43,468 bases of DNA from Polychytrium aggregatum (taxonomy: Eukaryota > Chytridiomycota > Chytridiomycetes > Polychytriales). Position 1 is the first letter of the stretch, and each line of letters opens with the position of its first letter. The stretch spans positions 1 through 43,468 of the forward strand of contig NW_026516437.1 of the NCBI RefSeq assembly GCF_025602895.1, read 5' to 3'. A program made the translations under genes and the position numbers. The notes under the pieces were generated by a model, which was not told where the DNA came from, ran no database searches, and saw only the letters and a program-made list of their open reading frames with translations. Below, in pieces: positions 14,904-40,297 of the stretch.

Positions 14904-17900
14904 TCACTCGACCGCCAATGACTTCTTCCGCACCAGGCCGCGGCTTGACTGCCGCTGCACAGGTTCAGGACGTTTGCCCGAGCCGGTGTCTTTGGAGGAT
15001 GCGTCCTGGCGGGACCTCGATCTCTCCGAGTAGCTCCCCGACTTGCCGAGCTCCGTGGGACGATCTTCATTCAGCATGTAGCGCGAGATGCGTCTGTTTC
15101 CGCCGCGCAGGTTGCTGGAGCTGCCTTGCCGACTGCCGGCCTTTTTGTTTTGCATGTAGTGGTAGAATTTGGTGAGGGCACGGACGACAAAGGTGAAGGG
15201 CATGTTGCCGAGGCCGAACCCGATGCAGAGTCCCCACTCGGCCGCGTCGAGCGACACTGTCGAGACAAAGGTGGAGCCAAAGGTCACAACGATGATCTGG
15301 ACGACGATGATGACGCTCAGGATGATCAGGAAGTAGTGGTTGCGCAGGAATCCCTTGAAGACGTTGAGCTCGCCATTGATCTGCCGAGCCATGACAATGT
15401 TGGTGCACTGCATAAAGATGAACGTGGCAAAGCACAGCGTCTTGGTGTGCATGTCCGGGTGGTCGGTGTCGGTTGGATCGACCGTGGCAAGAACAAAGAT
15501 GTAGTCGCCCTGGAGAAGAATCACCAGCAGCACCACCGTTTGGTAGACCACTTGGGTGATGATGTACAGCTTCATCTCGGTCGAGAGCAGATGGGCATCT
15601 CGGGCATGTGGAGGATGGTCCAGGATGTCGGGCTCGGGCTCGTCTGTCGCCAAGGCCAGGGCACCGAGAGAGTCCATGATGAGATTGACCCACAGCAGCT
15701 GGACGGTGCTCAAGGGGGGCTCTCCCACGGTCACCGACCCGACAAAGGTGAGAATGATGGCGGTCAGGTTGACACACAGCTGAAACTGTAAGAACTTGCG
15801 CACGCAGTTGAGGACGTTGCGGCCCCACTTGATCGACTGGACGAGCGACACAAAGTTGTCATCCAGAAGCACAATGTCCGAGGCATTCATGGCGATCTGT
15901 GTTCCTGAGATACCCATTGCAAAGCCCACGTCGGCCTCTTTGAGGGCGGGGGCGTCGTTGGTGCCGTCGCCAGTGACCGCCACGACTTCGCCCATTTTCT
16001 TCAGCAGACTAACGAGCCTGTGCTTGTCCGACGGCGAAGACCGGGCAAGCACCTGCAGGCGAGGAATGATGGCGAGCTGTTCCTCTTCGGCCATGGCCCG
16101 AAACACCGGGCCTTCCAAGGCCACGCCGTCGCTGAAGAGGATGCCGCACTCGGTGGCGATTTTGCAGGCCGTGAGAATGTTGTCGCCGGTGACCATTCGG
16201 ATCTTGAGCCCGGCGTTCTGGCAGAGTTCGACAGCTCCAGGGACCTCGCGGCGGACAGGATCCTTGATGCCGATGAGCCCTATCCACACGAGGTCGTGCT
16301 CAGGATCGTCCTTGACGGTCTGGCCCTCGATTGTGGTCAAGTGCTGGTCGGTGTCCCGGTAGGCAAGGGCAAGCGTGCGCAGGCCCTCGGAGGCCCATTT
16401 CTTGATGTTGCGCTGGATCTTGGAGACGTCGGCGGATCCCATCTCGTGCAGGTCGGTGCCATCCGAGTTCATGACGTGGGTGCACAGGCCCAAGATGATC
16501 TCAGAGGCGCCCTTGGTGTAGAGGCGATACTTGAATCGGTTGGAGGCGGTGGGAGACTGGGAGTTGGCCTTGACGAGCGTGGACATTCTCTTTCGCTCTG
16601 ACGAAAAGTTCCAGATGCCATTGTCGATCTTTTTGGTCTGCTCTCGGATGTGGGCATAGTCTATGCCAAGCTTTGAAAGAAAGATGAGGAGGGCGCCTGC
16701 CATATTGCGGTGCAACAAGAGGGCGCACCAAGATTGTCAATATAGGCGACGAGACTGCTGGTCTGGGGAGCGGCACTGCCGATGCGGATAGTTGCGCTGC
16801 CAGTCCGAGGCAGCGCTCAAACAGCTCACCTTCCGTCGCCGGTCCCACAAAGATGGGCTGTCCTGTGCCCTCGTTGTATTTGATAAAGCACGTCGAGTTG
16901 GTTGAGATTGCTTCGGCCAAAAATGATCGGAGTCGGAATGAAAAGGTTGACTTTGTGAACGGTGCGGCGCTGGCGTCGCCCGAGCCCTCGCCGTTGATGG
17001 TGTAGTCTCCGATCATGACCTTGACGACTGTCATGCGATTTTCGGTGAGGGTTCCGGTTTTGTCGGTGCAGATGCAAGTGGCTTCGCCCATGGTCTCTGA
17101 TGCGTCCAGGTGGCGCACGAAGCACTTGTCCTGCATCATCTTGAACATGGAGAATGCAAGCGAGATCGTTACGGCCATCGGCAAGCCCTCGGGCACGGCA
17201 ACGACGACGACCGTGATGCCAATAACAAAGTACTCGGCCAGGCTTTGGATGCGGGCGATGGTCGCATAACTCGTTGAAGCCGACCCGCAGGTCCCGTGGG
17301 TGGGCAGGCCGGTTGCCCAGTTGATCGCCCAGCGGGTAGTTAGCCCAAGAAAGGTCAGGATGCCGGCAGCAACGCCGATCTTGCCGATCAGGATGGCGAC
17401 GACCTTGAGCTTCTCCTGCAGAACGGTTTCTTGATTCTGAGCCTCGCTAAGCAGCTCCTGGATCTGCCCGCCGCTCGAGCGCGGACCAACAAGAGCAACG
17501 AGCATCAAGCCAGAGCCCTCGCTCACTTGGCAACCAGAGAACAGGAATGGCGCAAGGGGCCCTTTCTTGACGGGTGCCGATTCGCCTGTCAGCGGCGATT
17601 CGTCCACGACGAGCCGGTTGCCACTCACAAAGAATCCGTCGGCGGGAATCTCATCTCCGGTCTGGATTTCCACCAGGTCGCCTACGACAATGTCCCAGGA
17701 CGATATTTGGTCTTTGACCCCGCCGCGGATGACTTTGACTTTCTTGTCAGATTGGATCAGCAGCAGCTTCTTGAACTTGCGGTCCTTGCTGTAGTCGTTG
17801 CCGGCGGTGACAGAGAGGACGATGACGACGGCTATGAGGATGGCCAGGCCCTCGCCCCAACCGGTGCTGGGACACATGGATGTGCCGAGCGATAGAACCA

Positions 17901-18591
17901 CGACGGCGCCAACAAGAAGGATCTTGAGGATGGGGTCCTCTTTGACCGTCTCCCACACAATCTCGAGGATGCTGGCCGAGGCGGGCGGCGGCGAGATGTT
18001 CTTGCCATACAGGATCTTTCTGGCCTCGTCATCGACCGGGGTAAGGTCGACTTTGCCGGCCCGCGCCTCATCATCCGGGGTGATTTTGGCGTAGTGGCCG
18101 GGCTTGGTGTCTTCATGGCCCATGCGCAGACGCGTTTCGTGGGAGCTCTTGATGGGCAATCCGGTCTCGACGTTGGATTTCAGAAGATAGGCGATGCCCT
18201 CGACGCCTCCATATTCTTCGTTGAGAAGCTCGATCTGAGAGGCGGCTTCGCGGTTGTCAAAGTTGCAGATCCGAGCCAGGTCGTCGTTTCCAAGGCCGAA
18301 CTCTTCAGGGCCGAAACGCGGGTACATTTGCACGATGCGTTCAAAGCGCAGCCGGGTTGCCTCGCTCAGGTACTTTTGGGGCTCTTTGGACGGGGTCGGC
18401 TTTGCATCGGAGATGATATCGCCCTTTGAGGCTGCTACCAACGCAGGGGTGGATGCGCCGCCGAGGCCGTCCACGATGGAACGGGTGTCTGCTGAGGCCG
18501 TCGGCAACAGCCCTCCTGGACCCAGGGGCGCGATTGCTGGCGGGTCGTGATGCTCCTGCGCGTCTTCCACGTCGATTAGTTGCTGCGACAT
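14904..18591 (-). CDS. P2B-type Ca2+-transporting ATPase (PMCA/PMC1-like)
   Basis: ATP-driven Ca2+ export pump, in fungi usually on the vacuole or plasma membrane. Exons 16830-18591 and 14904-16696 join in phase across a 133-bp intron, giving TEGALLIFLSKLG and a protein of 1184 aa. Motifs in order: first membrane pair (KILLVGAVVVLSLG and LAILIAVVIVLS), actuator TGES near residue 335, EGLP in the calcium-binding fourth helix, phosphorylation motif DKTGTLT near 510, KGASE in the nucleotide domain, GDGTNDAPALK near 830, then the C-terminal membrane helices. The first 130 residues form an unusual hydrophilic N-terminal extension. The tail after the last helix is short, basic and Ser-rich (SGSYSERSRSRQD, SRGLVRKKSLAVE). 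This could be a regulatory or calmodulin-type segment, but no classical site is obvious. Confidence 0.95.
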
Positions 18592-19330
18592 GGTGACAAA
18601 ACTCGGGCGGCGCGGTGCTCACGGCTGGGGGATGGCGTGACGTGGATAGATGGAGTTCAGCCGGCACCGACGGGTTGAGCGTGCCGACGCGATTCAGTGT
18701 TCGGCGTAAGGGACTGCGATAGAAGGGAGGTGCGCTGATGGCCAGGGGGAGCTGAACGCGGCAGGAACAAAGTGCCGAACAGGAAGGCGCGATACACCGG
18801 GCAGGGGTGGTGCAATGCGTCCAGGGACAAAGAACGAGACGAAGAGCGGGGCGGTGACGACTCAAAGGACGGCGATCGAGGGATGAAGAGGTGCAAGCGG
18901 AGGACACGACCCAGACGAGGCGGTGGGAAGGCCTCCCGGCCGACATTGGGGTCAAGGGGCAGCTTGCGGGCGATCAGGCAGCCGGTGTTCATAGGGCGCC
19001 GAGGCACGGGCCGGGCCGCAGCTGATTGTACATTGCGGTCAACGGGAGTGCCCCATCATGGAGACGGCCAGGCGGGCAGCTCAGGAGAGCGGCGCACCGG
19101 GTGATTGGGCATGGGAGGTCGGCGAAACCGGGCAGGAGTGCACCTAGCAAAGATGTTCCGGCGGATGTCGAGGCGCACTATCACCACGCACAAAATGAGA
19201 GCAGAGCATTCAACCCAAGACGGCAGCAGCAGATGATCATGTGGGCCGGATGTGTGAGGGCAAAACTGAGGCGTATCAACTGTATATTTCAACAGACACA
19301 TCTGCATCGGTCAGCAATAGGAGGTGGTGC
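18592..19330. other. Intergenic stretch (Ca2+-ATPase upstream, eL36 downstream)
   Basis: GC-rich DNA with no recognisable coding region. The left part should contain the ATPase promoter and 5' untranslated region, the right part the eL36 3' untranslated region. Confidence 0.5.
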
Positions 19331-26634: not shown

Positions 26635-28286
26635 TCAGCGATCGAGCTCTGGCACAAGTCGTAGATAGTGCTTCAAAGCCTCGTCCCACCACGAGTCTGT
26701 GAGATATGCATCAGGGTTTGTCTGGCAGGGAGAAATGGCTGCGGTTAGTGTCGACGAAATCCGGCTGTAAAGCTTGCAAGAGCCACCGGTCGATCGACTG
26801 CTCCTGATCATCACCTTGGGCATTAGATCGCGGCAATTGCAGTTGTCAAAGGTGACCTTGTACTTTGGGATATCCACAGGACAGTGGACATGCCGTCCAT
26901 GGCGGTAGCCTGCGCCAGGTGCGCACGGTGGAGGCTCATCCGAGTCAGTTCACATGGCTGACTGACACATTCGCGTGAACATATTCAAGCTATGGCGACC
27001 ATAATATTGGGTCTACGATGTCGCACCCGGCGAGCCATCCCATTCCCTGGGTCGCATATACCTCATCATGCATCGGTCAAGGTTTAGCAGAAACCGGAAA
27101 GTGTGCTCACCGATGTCATTGAAATAGTGGATTTGACTCGGCTTTAGGAACATGGCAACGCCAAGGGTATGGACGGCGGCATCACCCCACCTCTCAAAAT
27201 AGAATCCACCCCGATCGTCGAGAAACCGAAAGTAATCCTGGTACTCATCTGACCGGAAAAAGTCAAGGTCGGCAATCTCGAAGTTGTCGAAAAAATAGTG
27301 GTAGTTGAAAGCGCTCAACACATCTGGCGACTCGCCAGATTTCCGATCAAAGGCTCGCAAGTGCTCGGGATATGTCCGATTGCGAGTCGAGAGGTACTCC
27401 AGGACTGTGCTCCAGAGAGTCGGCACGGTCCACAGGGCCTCGATGCCGACGACGTTGAAGCCATAGGTTTTGTTCCATCTCCTCATGAGCGCAAATGGGT
27501 CATATGCGAGTGTGCAAAAGTACGTAACGTCGGGCTCGATCTGGAAGAGACCGCGAGTTGATGGATCAGAAGCTGCGTCGAGGCGGATCTGGAGCAATGG
27601 TGGCCCTGCTGTGCGATTCATACGAGGATCCGAGTCGCTCGAGACCGACATTGCGAAAGATGCACGGTATAGAAAGGCGCATCCGACAGCAACGCCAATA
27701 TTACCCTCCAGTAATACTTGAACCGTTTCAGGGCATGGTGAGTTGCAAAATAGCCCGAGTAGTAGCGACACATATGATGGTAATTTTCAAACTCGGCTTT
27801 GAGTCCAGGCCGCTCCTGACCTTGCTTCTTGAAGGAATTCAGCACCGCCGTTTGGTTGTAGTGAGGCGGGATGGACCATTGTTCTGGCGGGATCAGCTCA
27901 AAGTAGACTACCGCTTGGGTGGCATTGGTAACGGCGTCCCTGAAGGCGGTATCGAAAGGCTCTTGGTTGAAGAAGACATACGGATACCGATAGCGGGCGT
28001 TGAAGGTTGGATCGAAGGTCTGGAGCGTTCGAAGGACGTCGCTCCTGTCCGAGTTCCGCGCCAGCATGATGATACAGGCGTTTTCTCGGCCAGGGTGGTC
28101 TCCGTATTGTGGGCCTTTGAATTGCAGCGACGGGGCTATTTCTGAAGCGATATGGTGGCCAAAGGACCAGTCAGCGACAGCCACCCCATCAACTGGATTT
28201 GTGTTTCCTGTGCGCTTGGCGACGAAATAGACCAAAGCCAGGAAGCCTGCAAGAAGCGAGGCTTTCAAGCGGCGCTTCGCCAACAT
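26635..28286 (-). CDS. Golgi alpha-1,2-mannosyltransferase, KRE2/MNT1 family (GT15)
   Basis: Adds alpha-1,2-mannose to O- or N-linked glycans of secreted and wall proteins in the Golgi. Four exons join in phase: 27705-28286, 27111-27540, 26815-26909 and 26635-26721, giving 397 aa. It is a type II membrane protein with anchor LLAGFLALVYFVAK near residue 10. Family motifs: NACIIMLARNSDRSDVL, PYVFFNQEPF, YHHMCRYYSG, KYYWRIEPDVTYFC (the metal/nucleotide-sugar EPDV motif), NFEIADLDFFRS, GGFYFERWGDAAVH, HYFNDIGYRHG and HCPVDIP..NC.C. The whole GT15 core is intact and the family is essentially fungal, which supports the taxonomic call. Confidence 0.95.
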
Positions 28287-29104
28287 GGTGAAGTGTGGCA
28301 ATTGGCGCGATGATGGGTGCGGCAAACGTTATGATGTAAAGTAATAGGTGCTGTGACTTGATCTTTGCATATGCGCGGTGATGTCCACCTCGAGTGTCGT
28401 GGTATGAAGAAGATCGATTCGTTCGCGAGGAACGTAGTTAGGCCGCCATCGCCGCGACGAGGGATGGGGCGGTAATCGAGCGCGATTTTGGCGGGCGGAG
28501 GACCTGGCCAGGCGCCTTTTGGCGGGTTCGCAATACCCCGAACATCCCCATAACGAAACGAGGGATGGCGTTGTTTTCTTGATCCTGAATGCAACCCCCC
28601 AAACGCTACCATGAACAAACATCGTGTTCAAAGAGACTGGTGGGGGGGGGGAGTGACTCATTCAACCCAATTATCTTGATATCGAGATGGTCAAATCCAC
28701 TCACAACACTCCAGTGTCACAACATCAATCCCAGTTGATCGTCGCCACAGGAGATCGACCAATGCAGCTCTGTAATCCCAATGCTCAGTTTTCTGAAAAT
28801 GAAAGCTAAAACACCGAACAGGTGACCGTGCTATTATCTTCACAAATTGAACACATTTGGGGGAAACCTTTACGATCTCTAAGTCTGAACGGAAGTCCAG
28901 CGATGGTGAGAACTTTGTGCCGACTCGATTCGGATCGGGAAGCGACTACCAACACAACCACAGCAGGAGAGCCAGGTGGTCGGGTCGCCTGAGTGCGCAA
29001 TCCTTGTCTTGTTTTGGCAAGATGATATCCATTGTCGATGATGGGTGGGCATATCCAGATCCATAGCAGTGGCAAGAGAAAGCAAAGCGTCTCCCTGCTT
29101 GAGG
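28287..29104. other. Intergenic stretch
   Basis: This holds the mannosyltransferase promoter on the left and the 3' flank of the peroxidase fusion gene on the right. A G-homopolymer of about ten bases lies near 28642. No coding region or RNA gene recognised. Confidence 0.5.
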
Positions 29105-32100
29105 TTAGATCAGTACGATCATTTCATCTATGTAGCCTGCCTCATCGAGCCTGCTGTTGATTGATTCGTTCATGGCAGGCGGTCTGCAGTCATAGCAAGC
29201 GGGGATGGGAATCTGGTAAGTTGACTGACTCGTGAGGTGGTCGAGAACCAATACAGATATCTCAGCGCTACTGACCCACAGACAATGATTCTTGTGCTGA
29301 TGATCTGGGATGTCCTTTGACCCCCGTCGTCCGTCGCCCCAGAGCGATTGGTCACCGAGGTCTTTCCAGCCTCTCGGTTTTCGGGCCCACTGATCGACGT
29401 TACAGCACTGTAGTCGTGCTCGATAGTTGTGTGGGAGCGCTTGACTTCTTTGGAAGGGCTCGGCCGCTTCGCTTTCTCGACCTTCCGTATCAAGCGCTGC
29501 TCCTCCAGCGTTGGCGCAGGAGGAAGCTGCTGTATGATCGAGTCGATGACATCAATCGGCTCTCCTGTGAGCGGGTTGACACTGGAGCTGTTGAAACGAA
29601 CGATCTTGACTCCTCCGCGCGAGTCCTTTTCAATCTGCTCCAGCTCTATCTTGCCGAACTCGTCTGCACTGGTTGAGTTGATGATGAACAGCTTTACGGG
29701 GACGGAGAATCCTCCGTCGGATTGTCGTGATGAGTGTTGCAAGTAGTAGTCCACCAAGAGCAGCATCGGAGTCAGGCCCGATCCTCCCGCAATGAGGGCG
29801 AGCTGGGTGAAGCAGCCCTGTGGTGATGCGGGGTTCATGATCCGCTTGGTCCGGGCGTCGTCGATTGGACCCCTCATACGAACGAACTTGGCGCTCTCAA
29901 GATAGGTTGCCATCTGGAGCATGGTGTCCCGATGGTTCAGTCGAGTGCATGTGGCGATTCAGCCGGGCTCAAACTGGGTCTCTATTATATCGACACGAGC
30001 CAACATAAGCCTACCTTTCCGTTCGGATAAAACTTGATGTAAAACACAATCTGTCCGGTATTAAGTGACTTGGTCGGAGTGTATGCTCTCGTAACTGCCT
30101 CTCCCTTTTCGTTGATAAACTGAAGCCAGACGTATTGATACGGCAGAAACCAGATCTGCTCGCCGGGGGAACTCAGCGCGACGACGATTCGATACACGGG
30201 GTTCCTGGCCCCAGATCCTGTGACGAGCTCGCGTTCGGTAATGATGTAAAAGTCGTATTGGCAGGCGGACAGGCCTGGCACTGGCGGGCTGCAGTGCTTC
30301 TCGAGATCAACGGCTTTTGATTCAAGAAGTTTTGTACTCTGAAAGTCGCGACCTCGCTTGAGTCTGCCCACTGCAGCTTCGTATAAAACAACCTTTGCCA
30401 GCTTCGAGTGGCTGTGCACAGGCAGGGAGGGCAGCTCTGGTCTTGCCTTTCTTCCGTGATAGGGGCCAGTGGCATCCATTCCCAAATAGCAATAAAGCAC
30501 CTGGATGCCGGCTGGGTGGGTGGACTCGATCATTTTGATGTCATATACGATGCCCTCGACAACGAGCCACTTTTCGCCCATGGCGATCCGCTTGTGAAAC
30601 TCCTCCCAAGCAAATTCTGGGAGTGTGAGCCATTTTTCAGCGTCGAACGAGGGTGGCCGCTCAGTGGGTTGGACAAACTTGAATATTATGGGGCCAGCTG
30701 AGATGACTGTGCATCGCTCAGGGCATGTAGATTGATACAATTGAATTAATGAAGGAGTTGTATCACCGAAACGGGAACCAGAGCATCGTTAACAGAGTGG
30801 TGATCACCACCGGCCACCGACCACAGGCTACAAAGCCAGCCGAAAGTGGGATGGCTGTGACTGTGTGCCCAGGAGCACCGTCGAGTCTGCATAGTGCCCG
30901 TTGAGTTCTTACCGAGAGTCACCAGAACCAGCCATGCTCCAGCAATCCAAGCCAAGTAGTTCATGTTTGTGATGTTGTTGACCGACAGAAACTGCTGGAT
31001 GCCCAGGATGCAATTGATTGCTCCCAAGAGATACGTTGTCGACCCCGACACTCGGTGGGCCATGCGAATCGAACCTGAGCACCGAACCGCTTTGGGGTTC
31101 TTCTTGGTGTAGACAATGGTGGCACCCAGGACTTGGACGAAAATAACGAGTCCCGTCAGGATGAAGCCAAGGATGACGTGTGGGTTCATTATGACAGCTG
31201 AGGTGGCGCTCAAGATAGCCGTCAGAGCGGTATGCAGAACCTGGCAAGGAAAGCATCGCGCGATAGTTTAGCTGTTGCCAGCAATCGCTATAGCAAGATT
31301 GAGGGCGAAACAGCAACGCATACAAATGCCGAAATGATTTCCATCGTCTCCTTGTGGAGTCGAAGCCCTCGACTGATGTTGGGATCGTGCTTGACGATGA
31401 GGACACCGATGGGATCTGATCGTCGATAGGCGATTGCCGACACATCGAATATATGGTTTAGCAATCGATACAGAATGCAAGCGTTATTGCTGCCGTTGGA
31501 AAGGCATACTCACATATTACTGCAAAAGACAGAAACATCACAATCGCATGGATCACCAGCAGCAAAAATGAGGGTAGAGAGGTGGGGCTTGGACCAGAAG
31601 CCTGCGAGCTGAAAAAGTTGACAACAGTTGCTCCGCGATTGACGCCATGGCTGTTGTGTGAATGAAGGGCAGCTTTCAGTCGGGTACGACGCTGCTTGCT
31701 GCGCGGAACATAGTTGTAGCTTTTTCAACGGAATCCATTCAAAGATAACCACATGTCAACCGAAACACATACTAGGAAAATGTTGGGGAGTTTGAATACG
31801 CAAAAATGACCGACATGTCTTCGTCCGCGATAGTTCCTCCATCAGAGCTGTCGTTCGACTGAAGCGCTCGACTGAAGGTCACCGAGGCAGAGTCGTTGGA
31901 GACAAATGTGATGATGTTGAAAATACGACTATATCCAAGTGCTTGTGTGGCCGGAGTTGGCATCAAAAAGTCACGAGAGATGGCGTCGACCACAGAGATG
32001 TTTCCGTGAATATCGTACGATGCATAGTAGATATCGGCGTTGCGCATGGTTTCTCCGAGGCCAAACGCAAACCAGCCCGCGCCAGTATATTCCATAGTGA

Positions 32101-34654
32101 AGGTGATTTGGCTACCGGATATGCTCCAGGATAGAGTGAGCTGAGACGACAGACTGATGGAGTTGAGTGAACCCGATGTCGTTGATGTCGAAGGAGCGGT
32201 GTATACGCAGGGGTTGTACGGAACACTGGTTAGATTGAAGTTGAGCTGCAGGAGCTTGCCTAAACTCATGTTTTGAACTTGGGCCATCTGAAAGGCGTCG
32301 AGAACACCGGGGTTTCGGTAGAAGAAGCGATCTCCATCCCTCAGCCTCGTGAACTGATCCAAAATGGATGCGCGCGCCAGTGCACCGACAACACCGTTCT
32401 TGTACGGGATTTCCAGCAAGGCACCGACGATTGCGTCGATGTCGCTGATGTTTGGAAACAAAGAAGCTAATGTCGCTGCCGGGGCAATGCTATTGTTGAA
32501 GGCTGTGTAGGATGATGCCATTGAGAGATTGAAGAACTGCCTCGCTGTATTATAGTCCGGAATGCCGAGTTCGCGGCCGCTGTGAGTAGTCATGGAGATC
32601 AAGAGCATGATGTGTGGGATTGTGAGTGCGACAGCGTGTGATGGCGTGTGTATGTCGATGCACCCGAGCGCGCCAAGGGTACTCTCAACGAGCCACAAAA
32701 AATGGTTTGGGCAGGGCTCCTGGATCCTGAGAAGCACCCAGCGCTTCACACGAGTTGATACTGCAGATAAGTGATCTGTGAGAGCCCAGTTCACCCACCG
32801 CTGAATATCAATCGCTGCCAAGTCGTATCCCTGGTTTCCGTTGAGAGGCAGACTGTTGCGGAGATCGTCTGTGTACTGAGCACCTGATTTTGCCTCGGGC
32901 TGGTTCATGAGTCCTCGGATATAGCCCTCCGGTCCTGAAGATAGCAGCCAATCCAAGTTGAAGAAAGTCTTTCTCATCTGCAAACATATACCCGCAGGCC
33001 AGCGAGATGTCAGTTATGGATCGATGCCATTCGACATTGGTCAGGTACTGAAATAAAGCGTGTGACTCGATTTGCACGGATTACAAGCCCATTCGTGTAG
33101 CTGATGTTCAAGAATCAATGCGAATTCCACATACCTCGACCATGCCGACGATTTGCCCAGATTCTTCAACGCTTAGAGTCGTGTCTCCGACGACCGAGTG
33201 CCCGTATCGAAAAGTGACGGCCATGAAGAAAACGTCGATTGCCGGATTTACGGAGCTGTTGTAGCCACTATACAGGGGAAGTGGCCCGCTCAACAACGGA
33301 GGAAGATATTGGGCATAGGTGATTTGCTGTCGAGAGCACGGTCAAAGAATAGTGTGAGTGGAAACATTGCATACGGTCAGAGCGCGACGGGGACGATTTC
33401 CTCTAGAGGAGTCGTGTGAATCCGTATCACATATCAAAGGGATTCGGTGTGTGCCGAGAACCATGGATTTGAGCAGACCTGGATAAGAGCAATGACATAG
33501 CGGCGGGTATACTGGAACAAATCTTCATCTGACCAGCTCTGGTTGAGTGTTTTGGCAAAGCGGTTGTGCTCGCGCCACACGGCCACATGCACCAGGACAG
33601 AGTGGAGCGCGATATTGGACGCAGCATGGGCAAATCGGAGTAGGTTCGTTGAGGTGTCCTGGCGTCAAGAGAGTCAAATGAACATTAGGTCAGAATCGCG
33701 CACAACGACCGATTTGGCCAAGCTTCAAGTAAGATGCCAAAAACTTGGGCTGCAATGCAAGAGGAGTCGGATAAGGTGTCGTATCCACCATGGTAATCCA
33801 TGTTCGGAGCCACACGCATTCGCGGCTAACAGCACTGCACAATCGCCGTGCATTCAAACAATCAGCAATTGATCCGTGAAACCATCGAGACCCACAATCA
33901 AGGGAATTTCGCCAGCGACTGGGTGGAGAAAGGTTTTGAGCAGGCCTCCAGTTCCGGTACGAATTGACTCCGATTCGGCTGGATTTTGACCGTATATCGA
34001 TGAGCCATCGATAAAGGATGAATAGACATTGATGGGGGCTGTAGCTCCGGCTTGGCGAGGATCGGCCGCCCCAGCCACGGCACGGGCCATTGGGATGTTC
34101 TGAGCACCGCTAAAGTAACGGTCAAAGTATAGATCGCCTGCTGGCACTGAGATGTTGAAGAAGGCATTGCTTTGATGGCCGATCGATGCAATATCTTGGG
34201 TGATGAGGGTTCCCCACGCGGTCAGCCACGCTGTCGCCGACCCACCGAGTTGGTTGGGCTGGTTCGCTGACAGGAGGAGGTTGGAAACGTTGCGTGCGTT
34301 CGGACGGGCACTTCCAGCAGGCTGACCTGTAGGTCCAACGATATACACGGCGCCATATGAGTAGTCGCGGCGCGTGCGATTGCTTGGGTGCCCGAGATGA
34401 GTTCACTCGCAATTTGGTGGCGTCGATGGCGGTGCTGTTGGAGCCATGCATCGCCAGCCATTTTCACTCTCACCGTTTGTGCCTCCAAAGGCCGGGCTCA
34501 TGAGCCGGAGCATAGTTGAGTTGGTCGCCCCCCACCATGGGTTCACCAGATTGTTGTTGGTGCCATCGAGCGATTGGATTTCCAGGCAGGTCGTCTGCAG
34601 GCACCAAAGCTGGGCCAGTAGAATGACCGCTATCAGACGGCAACTGGGGCTCAT
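29105..34654 (-). CDS. Peroxidase-DOMON-cytochrome b561-cytochrome b5-NAD(P)H reductase fusion
   Basis: Multi-exon gene of roughly 1,300 residues. Exon 1 starts at ATG 34654 with a signal peptide (MSPSCRLIAVILLAQLWCL). Animal-type haem peroxidase motifs follow: SLDGTNNNLVNPWWGA, ARNVSNLLLSAN, AWGTLITQDIA, INVYSSFIDGSSIYG, WREHNRFA, TFRYGHSVVG (proximal His), DIQRGRELGIPDYNTAR. The DOMON domain (about 31772-32200) ends FAYSNSPTFSYHGVNRGA after an in-phase splice. The b561 core has five helices with four candidate haem His: LLVIHAIVM, GLRLHKETM, MNPHVILG, RMAHRVSG. A donor at 30912 joins in phase to an acceptor at 30707 (or 30698), leading to cytochrome b5 (KWLTLPEFAWEEF, STHPAGIQVL), then FAD (RAYTPTK) and NAD (LIAGGSGLTPML, IIVCGPPAMNES) modules. 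Stop TAA at 29105. The downstream part has no ATG of its own before the b5 domain, so a fusion is favoured. Likely role: electron transfer from cytosolic NAD(P)H to an extracellular acceptor. Confidence 0.8.
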
Positions 34655-34938
34655 TGTTCACGATACCAGCGACACTTTTAGAGCGTCTTCGACACGCACC
34701 TCTGGCTGCGCGGCCGATATCGATTTGAGCGAGCGCACGTCCAGCACCAACCGCCTTCGGAGGATTTGCGAGAGGCCCTTGTTGCCATGAACCAATCAGG
34801 GACAGGTGCCTGGTGCAGCCACGTGAGTCCTGCAGGCCGACCACACCGTGGCTGCCTTGGGCTTGACGTGTTCCTTCCGCCAGCATCCCCCGCCCAACGA
34901 CCTCTGCCCTCCGTCTCGCCCCTGGTCAAGTCCGTACC
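34655..34938. promoter_or_regulatory. Head-to-head intergenic region, possible bidirectional promoter
   Basis: Only 284 bp separate the start codons of the peroxidase fusion (minus) and the 831-aa Sel1 protein (plus). Promoters and 5' untranslated regions of both must share this space. I see no clear TATA box. Confidence 0.5.
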
Positions 34939-37434
34939 ATGAGTTCGTGCGTCGAGATCGAGGCTGTAGCTGCAGCTGTTGCGGATATTGCCAGAGAAAT
35001 GCCAGGTTTGCCAATAGCCGGGGCACTTGGCGCTGCCCGCATCCTCTTTGGCTACATGCGACACGTCACCCACAACCGGCGCTCCTGGACGTTTTTCGCT
35101 CGCCGTGCGCTTGTGCTTCTCAAAGCGCTTTCGCAGCAGAATCCGCAGCACTTGGAGGATGCCCAAGTCGACGACGGCTATGCCGCCCTGTACTCTAACA
35201 TCGAAATATTCCTCACGCTTGAGACCAGCAAGACCGGTTCTTTGATCGAGCTGTGTTACATCCGCGAGCGCATCCATCGATTTTGCATGGACCAAGAGCG
35301 ACTATGGGAGTGCTTCTCCTCCACTCAAGACATCAGTGTACCGAAGCCCAATGGCTTCAACATTGATGCCTTTCAGCTGTGTCTCTCGAACGATGAAAAA
35401 GTGGCACGAAACCAGCCAGGTACAGAGCCTGACAAAGTCGACCTCGATAACAGAGTCAGCCACCGGCTTTCGGTCTCGACGACAAAGCGACCGGCTTCGG
35501 ATCCTGGTATGAGTGAAGATGCCCTCCCCGCGGCCAAAAAACGGTCTGTCGTCCGTACCGCGACAGAGAACTACACTCACGAGGCCACACTCGAGTCTTC
35601 AACCAGTCCTGAGCCAGAACCAGAGACTCAGCAGGCACAAGAATATGGACAACGGCCCGACGCTGCGTCAGAGCCAGTGGAAGTTCAGATTATCACAACT
35701 GTATCTGCACCGGAAGCGATATTGGAATCACAAGCAGATATCGAACAGTCAAAACCAGAAGGAATGAAACGAACAGAATCACCAAGGTCAGTCCCAGAGC
35801 AAGAGAATGTCTCAATGACAATCCACCGCTCTGCGAACCCTCGCCGTGAGGGAATTTCCAGTATTCGGCCATTGGAAATGCAGCGGGAGGATTCCGAAGC
35901 TACTGAAACGGTAGCGGCTGCTGAAGCTGTGCCAGAGCCGCCATGGCCACAAGTAACGACCGCTCAAGCTGATGAACTCGACCACCTGATGATCCAACCG
36001 ATACACAAGCCTTTCCCGATGCATATCCAACAAGATGGCTCAATCGACACCGAATGTCGGCCCTCTGATCCTTCATCCGACGATCCGACTTGCGAGCCTC
36101 GTGCTGAGAACCATCAGCCAACAAATCACCTTGCGACTGCCGGCGCAGCAACCCCTCCAGAATCAATGTCTTCTGCCGAGATCGTCGCGACACCAGAGAT
36201 CCAGACGGACCAAGTGCCAACCATGTTGTCCGAGGAAAGATCTTCGAAATTGACATCGTGTCGACGTTCCCGAGATTCCGTTTCGTCAGCCTCACCCCCT
36301 CAAGGTCGGTCAACACGATTTCGCGGAGTGAAGGAGATTGCCAAAGTGAAAGCGGAAAGCCCCGCTTCATCCCTTGAAGATCTCACAAGCGGTGACTTTG
36401 ATCGGTACATGGACGCTGTCGAGAACTTGATTCTAAGCCTTCCACACACTCATCCAGCGTGGGTGCAAGGCGCACAAGTCTTCCAGGATCAAGCCGCAGC
36501 CGGATCGCATATGGCACTCTTTTTCCTTGGGTGGATACAATTCCTTGGTCTCGGCGTCCCCAAGAGCGACGCCAGCGCTTTTGAAACATGGAAGAAACTT
36601 CTCCGTGACGAGCCTCTGGTGGAAACCGCGTCTCCACATGCTGCTCCAAGCTCGGAAAAAGATCTGTCGCCCCTGAAGAAACTTGTTATTCTATTGATAA
36701 AATGGGGCGCAGTGGGCGATCGGTGCACAGACAGCCCCAAGATCAAGCTCGCTGAATATGGAGATCCGCAAGGCACACGGACTCGAGCCTTCAAGTATCT
36801 TTACTATTGGGCGATTGCAGGATCAGACAGCGACTGGTTCTGCGAGCTTCTGATTGCCATTTGCTATTCATATGGCTTGGGAACCCCAAGAAACAAACCG
36901 GAATTTCGCAAGGTGTGGGCCGACTTTGAAAAGATCAAGGACATGAATGCGCAGTACGTCATCGGTTATTGTTACGAGCACGGAACCTTTGTTGAAGTTG
37001 ATCACACCAAAGCAGCTAGACACTATGACATCGCAAGTCAACAGCTGAATCTCAAGGCCCAGTACAGATCGGGACTCTGCCATCTGGCGAGAAAGGACAT
37101 CAAGCAAAATTATGACACTGCGTTCAAACTGATATCAAAGGCTGCCAAGAGAGGGCTCCCGTGTGCCATGAACAAGCTCGGAGAGCTCTACGAGGCCAGA
37201 AAAAATGTGAAAAATCATATGACCCGTGCCGCCAAATACTACAAAAAAGCTGCCGAGGCCGGTGATGCACGCGGACAGTATCAGCTCGGAAGATGCTACT
37301 CGACGGGAAGCGGCTTAAAGCGGTGCCCCAAGAGCGCTTTAGAGTGGTATCGCCGAGCGGCTGCGGCAGGGTATCCGGAGGCCCAGGTTGCTCTTGGACA
37401 AATTCATTCGACGGCCAAGGCACTTCCAATTTGA
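34939..37434 (+). CDS. Sel1-repeat protein with a helical MLKL/HeLo-like N-terminus
   Basis: Single-exon gene of 831 aa. Residues 1-130 are predicted helical with a Gly/Pro-containing hydrophobic start (EMPGLPIAGALGAARILFGY) followed by RRALVLLKALSQQ and a helix with YSNIEIFLTLE. This layout resembles the four-helix bundle of MLKL-type and fungal HeLo-like cell-death domains; the call is by eye and tentative. Residues about 150-480 are Ser/Pro/Glu-rich and probably disordered. From about 480 on are Sel1 repeats: MALFFLGWIQFLGLGVPKSD, WFCELLIAICYSYGLGTP, YVIGYCYEHGTFVEVDHTKA, GQYQLGRCYSTGSGLKRCPK, ALEWYRRAAAAGYPEAQVAL. Sel1 arrays are protein-interaction scaffolds. Lysine-, arginine- and hydrophobic-rich N-terminal helices would suit membrane contact, but no activity is shown. 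Confidence 0.85.
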   Translation: MSSCVEIEAVAAAVADIAREMPGLPIAGALGAARILFGYMRHVTHNRRSWTFFARRALVLLKALSQQNPQHLEDAQVDDGYAALYSNIEIFLTLETSKTGSLIELCYIRERIHRFCMDQERLWECFSSTQDISVPKPNGFNIDAFQLCLSNDEKVARNQPGTEPDKVDLDNRVSHRLSVSTTKRPASDPGMSEDALPAAKKRSVVRTATENYTHEATLESSTSPEPEPETQQAQEYGQRPDAASEPVEVQIITTVSAPEAILESQADIEQSKPEGMKRTESPRSVPEQENVSMTIHRSANPRREGISSIRPLEMQREDSEATETVAAAEAVPEPPWPQVTTAQADELDHLMIQPIHKPFPMHIQQDGSIDTECRPSDPSSDDPTCEPRAENHQPTNHLATAGAATPPESMSSAEIVATPEIQTDQVPTMLSEERSSKLTSCRRSRDSVSSASPPQGRSTRFRGVKEIAKVKAESPASSLEDLTSGDFDRYMDAVENLILSLPHTHPAWVQGAQVFQDQAAAGSHMALFFLGWIQFLGLGVPKSDASAFETWKKLLRDEPLVETASPHAAPSSEKDLSPLKKLVILLIKWGAVGDRCTDSPKIKLAEYGDPQGTRTRAFKYLYYWAIAGSDSDWFCELLIAICYSYGLGTPRNKPEFRKVWADFEKIKDMNAQYVIGYCYEHGTFVEVDHTKAARHYDIASQQLNLKAQYRSGLCHLARKDIKQNYDTAFKLISKAAKRGLPCAMNKLGELYEARKNVKNHMTRAAKYYKKAAEAGDARGQYQLGRCYSTGSGLKRCPKSALEWYRRAAAAGYPEAQVALGQIHSTAKALPI

Positions 37435-38008: not shown

Positions 38009-39586
38009 TCACAACCGAATCCCCAGCAGCTGGAGTCTGTTGATGGCGCCTTCGAAACCCTGGTCAGCAGCCTTGCGGTACCAGGAGACGGCGGTGTCAA
38101 TGTCGAGAGGCACGCCTTCGCCATACTCGTAGCAGTTGCCAAGGTTGTTTTGGGCGTATCGATTGCCTCGCTCGCCTGAAATGGAATACCACTCGACTGC
38201 CTTGACTCGGTCCTGGGTGACTCCGATTGCTCGATAGCTGCATTCACCAACCCTCCACTGCCCGTACAAGTTGCCTTGGTTGGCCGACTTGCTGAACCAC
38301 TCGAAGGACTTCTTGTGGTCAATTGCGACGCCCATGACACATCGATAGCACACCCCTGCCCAGAACTGGCTGTCGCTGTGGCCGTCGTTGGCGAGTTGTT
38401 CAAAGATGCCCGCTGCCTTGGTCTGGTTCTTCAGGGTCCCTAATCCATGGAACAAACACACAGCCATGAGGTGACTGCACAGCCAGTCACGGTCCGATCC
38501 AAACCGGCACAGCTCAAAGAGCTTGCGGGCAGCCAGTGAGTCACTTGGGGAAGAGATCCACCACGCCAAGCACTCATCTTCTCCGAGCTTAAACACATCC
38601 GACTTGTTCTCTCGGATGATCTTGATGCCGTTCTGCTGGTCTTGGGGTGTTCCCCGGCCGAGGTAATGCATCCAGCCAATCATGTGAGTGGCGATGGGTT
38701 TGAGGACTTGATCGGTGGACTTGCTGCTGACTTCCTGCCAGCGGTTGAGAGCATCGACATCGCTCTGTTCGACACCGTGGCCGATGAACGAGAACCAAGC
38801 TTGCAAGAACACGATGTGGAGTCGGCCGTCTTCGTTGCCCTGGTCGGCAGCCTTGGAATACCACTCGATGGCTGTGTTGTAATCTTGGTCGACACCTTCA
38901 CCACTTTCGTAGCAACCTCCAAGGGCGACTTGGGCCTGAAGGATTCCACGTTCTGCAAGACTGCGGTACAACTCGACAGCCTTTGCGTGGTCTTGGTCAA
39001 CCCCGAGCCCGTTGCGATAGCATGACGCAAGCTGGAATTGAGCCATTGAATGATCAGCTTGGGCTGCCTTCTCCAAATGGTGAAAGATTCGCTGGTGCAT
39101 GCTTTGCTGCTCGGATTTCTCCAAAGACTGCTGGCCAGCGAGATCGACTTGTAGGATCATTGCCAGGAAATACGACGCGACAACATTGCTCTGATATGCT
39201 TGGACAACGAGCCAGGATTGGTCGGCTGTGCCTGGATCCTTGCAGTGCAGCGAGAGTGCAATCTTGTCGCTCGGTGTGAGGCCGATCCGCATCTGTCCGT
39301 CTGGACGGCACAGGCTTGCCTTCTGGCACCATTTGTTGAAACGAGGCAACCTGAAGCTCAGGAAAAGACGGGCACGCCTGCACACTCGGAGGAGGGTCTT
39401 GATGGTGGCAAGGTCGAGGGCGAGTTGGAAGCTGTCGTTGCAGCAAATGATGGTGAAGATATCAGGGTTGTGGTCGGGCGAGGGCTGGGTGATATCGGGC
39501 ATCGACGAGGTTGTGCTGGCTTCAGCTTGGCTTTGGTGGGTGGCAAATGATGCCGTGGTTGAAGCAGGCTCGCTCATGCTGGCCAT
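38009..39586 (-). CDS. Sel1-repeat protein
   Basis: Single-exon gene. I choose the ATG at 39586 (MASMSEPASTT), giving 525 aa, because the open frame upstream to 39715 is Cys-rich and repetitive and looks like 5' untranslated sequence. The N-terminal 150 residues (DIFTIICCNDSFQLALDLAT, RLFLSFRLPRFNKWCQ) are not recognised; they show a hydrophobic alpha/beta pattern. Then come Sel1 repeats: MAQFQLASCYRNGLGVDQDH, AQVALGGCYESGEGVDQDYN, TAIEWYSKAADQGNEDG, AQNNLGNCYEYGEGVPLDID, TAVSWYRKAADQGFEGA. Between repeat blocks is a module GWMHYLGRGTP...GSDRDWLCSHLMAVCLFHGLGT that is also present in the gene at 34939-37434, so the two are paralogues. Role probably scaffolding. Confidence 0.88.
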   Translation of the reverse strand: MASMSEPASTTASFATHQSQAEASTTSSMPDITQPSPDHNPDIFTIICCNDSFQLALDLATIKTLLRVCRRARLFLSFRLPRFNKWCQKASLCRPDGQMRIGLTPSDKIALSLHCKDPGTADQSWLVVQAYQSNVVASYFLAMILQVDLAGQQSLEKSEQQSMHQRIFHHLEKAAQADHSMAQFQLASCYRNGLGVDQDHAKAVELYRSLAERGILQAQVALGGCYESGEGVDQDYNTAIEWYSKAADQGNEDGRLHIVFLQAWFSFIGHGVEQSDVDALNRWQEVSSKSTDQVLKPIATHMIGWMHYLGRGTPQDQQNGIKIIRENKSDVFKLGEDECLAWWISSPSDSLAARKLFELCRFGSDRDWLCSHLMAVCLFHGLGTLKNQTKAAGIFEQLANDGHSDSQFWAGVCYRCVMGVAIDHKKSFEWFSKSANQGNLYGQWRVGECSYRAIGVTQDRVKAVEWYSISGERGNRYAQNNLGNCYEYGEGVPLDIDTAVSWYRKAADQGFEGAINRLQLLGIRL

Positions 39587-40297
39587 GTTGACGGAGACTG
39601 GAGGGAGGAAAGTGGGTGGCGATGGACAGAGGACAGAGGGGGAAGTGGCGAAGCAAGGCAAACCATGGCAAGCCATACCCTGGCAAGCCAAGCACTGGCC
39701 ATCCAACACACACACACCTGGCTCGATCCGATGGCTTGTTGGCTGGAGTCGGTGTTACCATGCACTGCCACAGGTACTGCCACATTCATCGAACATGAAA
39801 TTGAACATGAAATCGAGCCTTCCTATTCACAGCACAGAGTCGACCAGACTCGGTCATGAAATGTAGGCATGGACTGATATTTGTGTTGCAGTGTGAGGGA
39901 GGATCGACTCAAGGATCAACAATACTGGCCACATCACAACCAGGCACGCACGAGATGATTGAGCGGAGTTGCGTCGTTCATTGGTGGGATGGAAGGCACA
40001 GATGTCAGTCGGGCTGTGAGGCGCGGTTGTGAGAACATGGTGCAAGCATGGCAAGAGGAATGCAATGGAGTCAATGAGAGACAGGGACCATTGGAAAAAG
40101 AGTGGGTTCGCAAATCGCCCATATTCTCCACTTCTTGGCCCCAGAGTGGGCAACAGCCTCTCTGTGCATACTGCTGCGTTGCCACAACCAAACCATATCA
40201 TCATCATCCAGCCCATCGGTCGAATTCGAGTGCTGCCCTGAAAGCCCCGGTGGCTTCGCTATGGGTGCGCTGCATCAGTACAGCCATTTGTCAAGGT
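39587..40297. other. Intergenic stretch
   Basis: Upstream flank of the Sel1 gene. It contains short direct repeats (GGCAAGCCA near 39665-39690; GAACATGAAAT repeated near 39788-39812). No gene recognised. Confidence 0.45.

Follow-up and report, generated by a model that had tools for sequence, protein, structure and literature searches.

We identified in the chytrid Polychytrium aggregatum a gene that joins a peroxidase-fold head, a predicted transmembrane haem wire and a reductase of the NADH-cytochrome b5 reductase type in one polypeptide. The gene lies in a stretch of 43,468 nucleotides (contig NW_026516437.1, positions 1 to 43,468; hereafter the window), where 12 exons on the minus strand, from 34654 to 29105, splice to a single protein of 1311 residues. 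Its Pfam modules follow in the order An_peroxidase, DOMON, Cytochrom_B561, Cyt-b5, FAD_binding_6 and NAD_binding_1; only Cytochrom_B561 fell under its curated cut-off, and the remaining five were above theirs. From comparison with known families, we think it probable that the product is a single-chain flavo-multihaem electron exporter, presumably of the plasma membrane, that is driven by NAD(P)H and carries an altered haem head.

29105..34654, minus strand: whole coding region, 12 exons, 1311 residues (spliced model; deposited near-twin P0001).
34586..34654, minus strand: N-terminal hydrophobic stretch, probable signal peptide, residues 1-23 (sequence read directly; the call was made by eye, and the stretch stays under the hydropathy threshold used).
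29105..29183, minus strand: last exon, which completes the VCGPP motif and the C-terminus (spliced model; intron at the same place in the paralogue).

A preliminary description of the window, made from the letters alone, had proposed one gene on one strand with this module order and had predicted the same set of Pfam families. Both proposals were borne out by the 12-exon model, the Pfam matches, the homologues and the shared introns. The splice joins it had named (exon 1/2, IQR/GREL, YHGVNRG, the b561 joins, helix 5 to b5, and VCGPP) all hold, and every intron of the gene is of the GT-AG type, with lengths of 83 to 237 bases. Exons run across the borders between modules: exon 6 spans the passage from peroxidase to DOMON, exon 7 joins the YHG end of DOMON to helix 1, exon 10 carries the second half of helix 5, the b5 module and the beginning of the FAD module, and exon 11 spans the FAD-NAD border. 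A deposited P. aggregatum protein, P0001, named heme peroxidase in the database, equals the window model in side-by-side reading except at residues 8 and 1309. It threads exactly onto a second copy of the gene on contig C364 of the same assembly, in which 5548 of 5550 bases (99.96%) are equal to the window and the 11 introns have the same lengths; the two residue differences fit the two base differences. The pair may be haplotypes or one locus assembled in duplicate.

A paralogue, P0002, which threads exactly onto contig C323, shares all 11 introns with P0001 in alignment column and phase. We considered whether two or more adjacent genes had been falsely joined by the splice model. The gene structure is a model drawn from sequence, and two proteins of Powellomyces hirtus begin late, P0126 (889 residues) inside DOMON and P0128 (750 residues) inside b561. 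Both of these start in the middle of a domain, as expected of truncated models. With exons bridging every module border, 11 of 11 introns common to the paralogue and 8 species represented by deposited proteins of this module order, we rejected a run-on or separate-gene artefact; a false join is extremely improbable, and the comparisons show the locus to be one gene for a single protein.

The head is encoded within the first six exons.

32225..34576, minus strand: animal haem peroxidase head, residues 27-506, exons 1-6 (PF03098, 361.8 bits).
34196..34198, minus strand: Gln104, at the place of the distal catalytic histidine (alignment of heads).
33620..33622, minus strand: Ala217, at the place of the distal arginine (alignment of heads).
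33198..33200, minus strand: His307, proximal haem ligand (FRYGH), kept (17 of 17 fusion heads).

By sequence and by structure comparison, the head falls among the peroxidase-cyclooxygenase superfamily (8s6c, DdPoxA 6erc and lactoperoxidase), and DUOX1 was among the sequence matches to solved structures, at 123.3 bits. The superfamily is marked by a GQxxDHD motif with the distal histidine and an RxxE motif with the distal arginine and the haem-linked glutamate (PMC4420034). The window head has neither motif: Thr100 stands at the Gln place, Gln104 at the His, Ala217 at the Arg and Ile220 at the Glu. The preliminary description had called the head peroxidase-like, which is right as to fold; it missed the loss of the distal His, Arg and Glu.

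The loss extends through most of the family. When heads were aligned to a profile made from ten fusion heads, the proximal histidine was present in all 17, fungal and algal, and the distal histidine was absent in 12 of the 13 that cover the site, P0008 alone keeping it; the other 12 have Gln (5), Leu (2) or one each of Ser, Thr, Tyr, Phe and Met. Of the 14 fungal rows that have a residue at the distal arginine place, two carry the arginine (P0008 and P0009), and algal P0070, in a model with a cut N-terminus, has Thr. Outside the 13-head count, a third P. aggregatum gene reads IHLD at the distal site, that is, Leu. A histidine stands one residue before the distal place in that gene and in P0003, P0124, P0125 and P0127, where another register is possible. 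As controls, we took all other proteins from three protein searches that matched the head profile, 110 in number, a set picked by similarity rather than at random and consisting mostly of unnamed metagenome proteins, the named ones mainly from bacteria. In these the proximal His (110/110), distal His (104/104, six controls lacking the region), Arg (110/110) and Glu (110/110) were invariant. Sixty-one columns were at least 95% conserved in the controls, and 39 of them persist in 80% or more of 11 fusion heads. Among the 15 columns listed as lost, the two distal motifs account for six, and another two are no more than four residues away from these motifs. These alignments show the head's residue loss to be selective for the distal side.

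P0008, from Sorochytrium milnesiophthora, is alone among 13 fusion proteins in having all four distal residues (Gln, His, Arg and Glu), and offers a natural control with a peroxidase-like head. A separate feature of the heads is an aspartate twelve residues before the proximal histidine (Asp295; 33234-33236, minus strand): all 17 fusion heads have it, against 3 of 110 controls, which makes it a mark of wired heads.

The head shows no sign of decay. Identity between P0001 and P0002 is 66% in the head, compared with 51% in DOMON, 49% in b561, 70% in b5 and 65% in FAD plus NAD. The nonsynonymous rate (dN) of the head is 0.28, the lowest of the four parts, and the synonymous rate (dS) 2.8, a value near saturation; dS was not computable for the other parts. 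A decaying head was rejected on these grounds. Peroxide splitting in the superfamily uses the distal His and Arg, and because both are lost the head is unlikely to be an ordinary peroxidase. It is still strongly conserved, and would therefore be used for something besides ordinary peroxidase chemistry; since the proximal haem ligand is kept, we take it as a candidate haem-bearing terminal or acceptor-binding module.

Between the head and the reductase lie the modules that would carry electrons across the membrane.

31796..32149, minus strand: DOMON domain, residues 532-649 (PF03351, 56.7 bits; a genome profile search finds the same place).
32045..32047, minus strand: Met566, probable DOMON haem ligand (11 of 12 rows; by analogy to HYP1 M90, PMC10784544).
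31647..31649, minus strand: His658 of YHG, probable DOMON haem ligand (12 of 12 rows; by analogy to HYP1 H174).
30660..31571, minus strand: cytochrome b561 core with five predicted helices, residues 684-858 (PF03188, 21.0 bits at 690-816, cut-off 23; hydropathy; P0009 model; loop lysine/arginine bias).
31548..31550, minus strand: His691, predicted outer b561 haem ligand, paired with His754 by analogy to HYP1 (12 of 12 rows).
31354..31356, minus strand: His723, predicted inner b561 haem ligand, paired with His795 by analogy to HYP1 (12 of 12 rows).
31178..31180, minus strand: His754, predicted outer b561 haem ligand (12 of 12 rows).
31055..31057, minus strand: His795, predicted inner b561 haem ligand (11 of 12 rows, P0011 being gapped).
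30384..30608, minus strand: cytochrome b5 module, residues 876-950, with His906 and His942 (PF00173, 30.6 bits, residues 876-927; His pair in 11 of 11 fungal rows).

The ligand alignment comprises 12 rows, 11 fungal and one algal. The DOMON methionine occupies the same column in 11 of them and is shifted by one column in P0010; the b5 histidine pair and RxYTP occur in all 11 fungal rows. For the b561 part, a predicted structure of the homologue P0009 (not of the window protein itself) has five helices, and hydropathy gave five separate peaks in P0008, P0012, P0013, P0062 and P0070; in other rows some b561 helices merge or fall under the threshold. In the two loops assigned to the inner side, 88 of 582 residues are lysine or arginine, compared with 10 of 263 in the two assigned to the outer side (12 rows); we chose the loop limits from P0001 and excluded the tail after helix 5 (81 of 519). 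A five-helix topology is thus suggested for the window protein.

Because the P0009 model had a mean predicted local distance difference test score of 77.7 and a predicted template modelling score of 0.50, we did not use the relative placement of its modules. The structure comparison tested mainly residues 25-524 of the model; the DUOX1 rows extend to residue 1147 with a root-mean-square deviation of 13 to 23, so that their head match alone counts. No DOMON, b561, b5 or reductase entry appeared in the best 50 structure rows, which are uninformative about those modules.

The C-terminal half ends in two nucleotide-binding modules.

29863..30191, minus strand: FAD module, residues 1015-1090, RAYTP, split by intron 10 (PF00970, 38.4 bits).
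29518..29796, minus strand: NAD module, residues 1113-1205, GGSGLTP (PF00175, 27.4 bits).

The best structure matches of this half were NADH-cytochrome b5 reductases. Like fusions of b5 with such reductases, the window protein has the b5 His pair, RxYTP, GGSGxTP and CGPP, all present in the P0001 row; it differs from them in that its reductase sits at what would be the cytosolic end of a b561 membrane protein. The nucleotide motif GGSG(L/I)TP was found in 5 rows and is not expected in the algal one. The fused reductase suggests NAD(P)H, in place of ascorbate, as electron donor, and NADH is the likelier of the two forms because the reductase is of the b5-reductase type.

The closest known relatives of the membrane part are the CYBDOM proteins, exemplified by HYP1 of Arabidopsis. 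HYP1 is reported to have five helices, an outer haem at H211-H278, an inner haem at H245-H314 and the DOMON ligands M90 and H174, and to reduce ferric and cupric substrates with ascorbate as donor (PMC10784544). The window protein likewise has DOMON followed by b561, a Met/His pair in DOMON and two b561 His pairs in the same order over five predicted helices, its b561 match being below the cut-off. It differs in an added outer peroxidase-fold head and an added inner b5 plus FAD/NAD reductase, which would replace ascorbate. By these features it is a CYBDOM protein extended at both ends, with a b5-type reductase of its own.

The likeness to dual oxidases, stressed in the preliminary description, is one of plan: both have an N-terminal peroxidase-fold head, a haem membrane core and C-terminal flavin and nucleotide modules in one chain. 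The membrane core and reductase are, as had been proposed, of other families. Neither Ferric_reduct (PF01794) nor FAD_binding_8 (PF08022) matched the window protein at E up to 1, NAD_binding_6 (PF08030) reached 14.2 bits against a cut-off of 22.2, and no EF-hand was matched by Pfam at E up to 1. The heads, too, are altered on opposite sides. The window head has the proximal His but not the distal one, while the human DUOX1 head is described as having no haem ligand His, with no haem seen (PMC7794343), Drosophila Duox as having neither histidine (PMC4654585), and the DUOX family as being without the proximal His, the function of the head having been called obscure in 2015 (PMC4420034). Identity as a dual oxidase was therefore rejected on the grounds of the other membrane core, the absence of detected EF hands and the presence of the proximal His; what goes beyond these comparisons is the suggestion that the protein works as a dual oxidase does. 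From the peroxidases of the peroxidase-cyclooxygenase superfamily, with which they share the fold and the proximal haem site, the fusion heads differ in having mostly lost GQxxDHD and RxxE and in being joined to a membrane wire.

At least 14 deposited proteins, whole or truncated, have the same module order. They come from 8 species: P. aggregatum (2), Geranomyces variabilis (5), G. michiganensis (1), Thoreauomyces humboldtii (1), Rhizophlyctis rosea (1), Sorochytrium milnesiophthora (2), Paraphysoderma sedebokerense (1) and Paraglomus occultum (1). The preliminary description had counted the lack of a full-length homologue in related species, along with separate transcripts, as evidence against one gene; the order was found in Chytridiomycota, Blastocladiomycota and Glomeromycota, in a phylum look-up that covered all of these species except G. 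michiganensis. Several models are incomplete: that of G. michiganensis is missing its N-terminus and that of P. sedebokerense its C-terminus, the P. occultum protein is marked partial, and P0127 of G. variabilis ends early. Module order was assigned from Pfam and alignment, with Pfam run on the window protein, P0002-P0005 and P0008-P0013, and from precomputed domains for P0124, P0125 and P0127. The distribution is a lower bound and relatives may have been missed, because each protein search scored about 8000 candidates (those with most shared words) and one gave the best 120 of 375. Database names of these proteins are heme peroxidase, DOMON domain-containing protein or hypothetical, and among the titles and opening lines of abstracts listed from open-licence PubMed Central papers, a scope that leaves most subscription papers outside, we found no description of the full architecture, in agreement with the preliminary description.

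No stand-alone DOMON-b561-b5-reductase form occurred among the 10 proteins from a profile search of that half: five have the head, two are the mid-domain Powellomyces proteins, one is a head-DOMON fragment of 406 residues and two combine dopamine monooxygenase with DOMON. In the green alga Tetradesmus obliquus, two proteins (P0062 and P0070, on contigs of more than 5.6 Mb) share the head-DOMON-b561 order with the fungal proteins and fall on the same side of the head tree. Unlike the fungal proteins, they gave no b5 or reductase match with Pfam, and in their deposited models the head is missing its N-terminal part.

When 68 heads were placed in a tree, a branch with support 100/97 separated the 16 fusion heads, of which 14 are fungal and 2 algal, from the 52 others. 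P0005 and P0010 sit on long branches, and the tree includes no known dual oxidase. With the root placed among the 52 others, the wired head would have a single origin. The distal histidine needs two changes on this tree: it would have been lost twice, or lost once and regained in P0008. The algal heads group with P0008 and P0009, two Blastocladiomycota heads (support 99/92), and a single clade of fungal heads was not rejected by the approximately unbiased test (p 0.22). The link between algal and fungal heads may reflect either shared ancestry or transfer.

P. aggregatum itself has three genes of the peroxidase-DOMON-b561-b5-reductase type. The third and more distant one, on contig C365, was read in pieces and has head, DOMON, b5, FAD and NAD in the same order with b561-like stretches between. 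DOMON matches above cut-off occur at 4 places in the genome, all in these three genes (the window gene counting on two contigs), and four further places lie below it; the search ran exon by exon and could miss a DOMON split by an intron. The genome also has genes of the NOX or ferric-reductase type, with 12 FAD_binding_8 and 16 Ferric_reduct places, a count that is unsorted between NOX and FRE and includes second contig copies. NOX has been reported in chytrids (PMC9421330). Since the genome has such genes, the window protein is no stand-in for a missing family.

We propose that the N-terminus would lie outside the cell and the reductase inside, an orientation taken from the known families. 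Electrons would pass from cytosolic NAD(P)H to FAD, to the b5 haem and to the inner b561 haem (His723/His795); the outer b561 haem (His691/His754) would be next, followed by the DOMON haem (Met566/His658) and an extracellular acceptor. The head would provide a putative fifth haem site, with its proximal ligand kept and its peroxide-splitting residues lost, and would serve as a terminal or acceptor-binding module in place of an H2O2-consuming peroxidase. Candidate acceptors are a metal, as for HYP1, and O2, as in a convergent dual oxidase; for P0008, H2O2 is a further candidate. What the head does is the least certain part of this mechanism.

Several observations weigh against the electron-exporter reading. 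The mechanism is drawn from sequence comparison, and haem binding by the head is a prediction. The b561 match of the window protein, at 21.0 bits, is under the Pfam cut-off of 23; it is also below cut-off in P0002, P0010 and P0011, and b561 was not found by Pfam at E up to 0.5 in P0003, P0004 and P0008. For DOMON, Pfam gave no match in P0008 and P0011, and matches short of the cut-off in P0012 and P0013. P0008 and P0010-P0013 have altered forms of the nucleotide motif, and the truncated P0009 lacks it. In P0001, an arginine stands five residues before the distal Arg place, and there is a small chance that this stretch aligns in another register. Finally, Pfam finds an SH3 domain in the NAD half of P0011-P0013 (Rhizophlyctis rosea and Geranomyces variabilis). 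These three make up a second fusion sub-type. Partner proteins are known to regulate NADPH oxidase complexes, and by analogy the SH3 domain suggests such regulation here.

Rival views of what the protein does differ in the acceptor they name, and those that name a metal, O2 or H2O2 are compatible with electron export. If the protein were a metal reductase of the CYBDOM type, DOMON would reduce ferric or cupric chelates, with the head as a non-catalytic pseudo-peroxidase that binds a substrate or partner. HYP1, the closest functional analogue, fits this, as do the loss of the distal catalytic residues and the report that Naegleria and oomycetes have ferric reductases whose DOMON is extracellular (PMC3591440), but a non-catalytic head has no obvious need for an invariant proximal His and a conserved scaffold; we regard this as a serious possibility that falls short of an even chance. 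Were the protein instead a convergent equivalent of dual oxidases, electrons would reach O2 at the head or the outer haems and superoxide or H2O2 would form outside, independently of NADPH oxidases. The plan of head, haem wire and flavin reductase speaks for such an oxidase, 5 of 13 heads have Gln in place of the distal His, and a haem held by the proximal His, its distal His and Arg gone, would be open on one side, where O2 could bind. Set against these are the NOX- or ferric-reductase-type genes already in the genome and the report that HYP1 reduces ferric and cupric substrates (PMC10784544), and O2 as acceptor is an inference, so that we hold this oxidase to be rather unlikely.

The wire might also feed Compound I and II of the head, so that external H2O2 would be reduced by cytosolic NAD(P)H. 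The Sorochytrium protein P0008, with its complete set of distal residues, has a head that could do peroxidase chemistry; yet the distal His is gone in 12 of 13 heads, including both joined P. aggregatum proteins, and the third P. aggregatum gene is also without it, which makes a wired peroxidase quite improbable. A wider form of the oxidase view is that early fungi evolved, apart from animals, a self-contained oxidase with the dual-oxidase layout, in which five haems, one flavin and an O2-reducing former peroxidase head on an NADH-driven b561 wire would make superoxide or H2O2 without an NADPH oxidase. We consider this unlikely, and retain the electron exporter with an altered haem head as the probable reading.

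The remaining genes we noted in the window are of other kinds. A Glyco_transf_15 (alpha-mannosyltransferase) gene adjoins the 3' end of the fusion gene (27013-28328, minus strand, two reading-frame pieces), two Sel1-repeat proteins lie beyond its 5' end (34867-37434, plus strand, and 38009-39754, minus strand), and a P-type cation ATPase gene is found at 14904-18618 (minus strand, two reading-frame pieces).

If the electron-exporter reading is true, fungi would have, besides NADPH oxidases and ferric reductases, a further route for electron export that unites donor, wire and head in a single chain open to test. The family would also be a natural experiment on what becomes of a peroxidase fold wired to a reductase, the distal side being lost here and the proximal side in dual oxidases. 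It may in that way bear on the altered peroxidase domain of dual oxidases, the function of which has been called obscure (PMC4420034).

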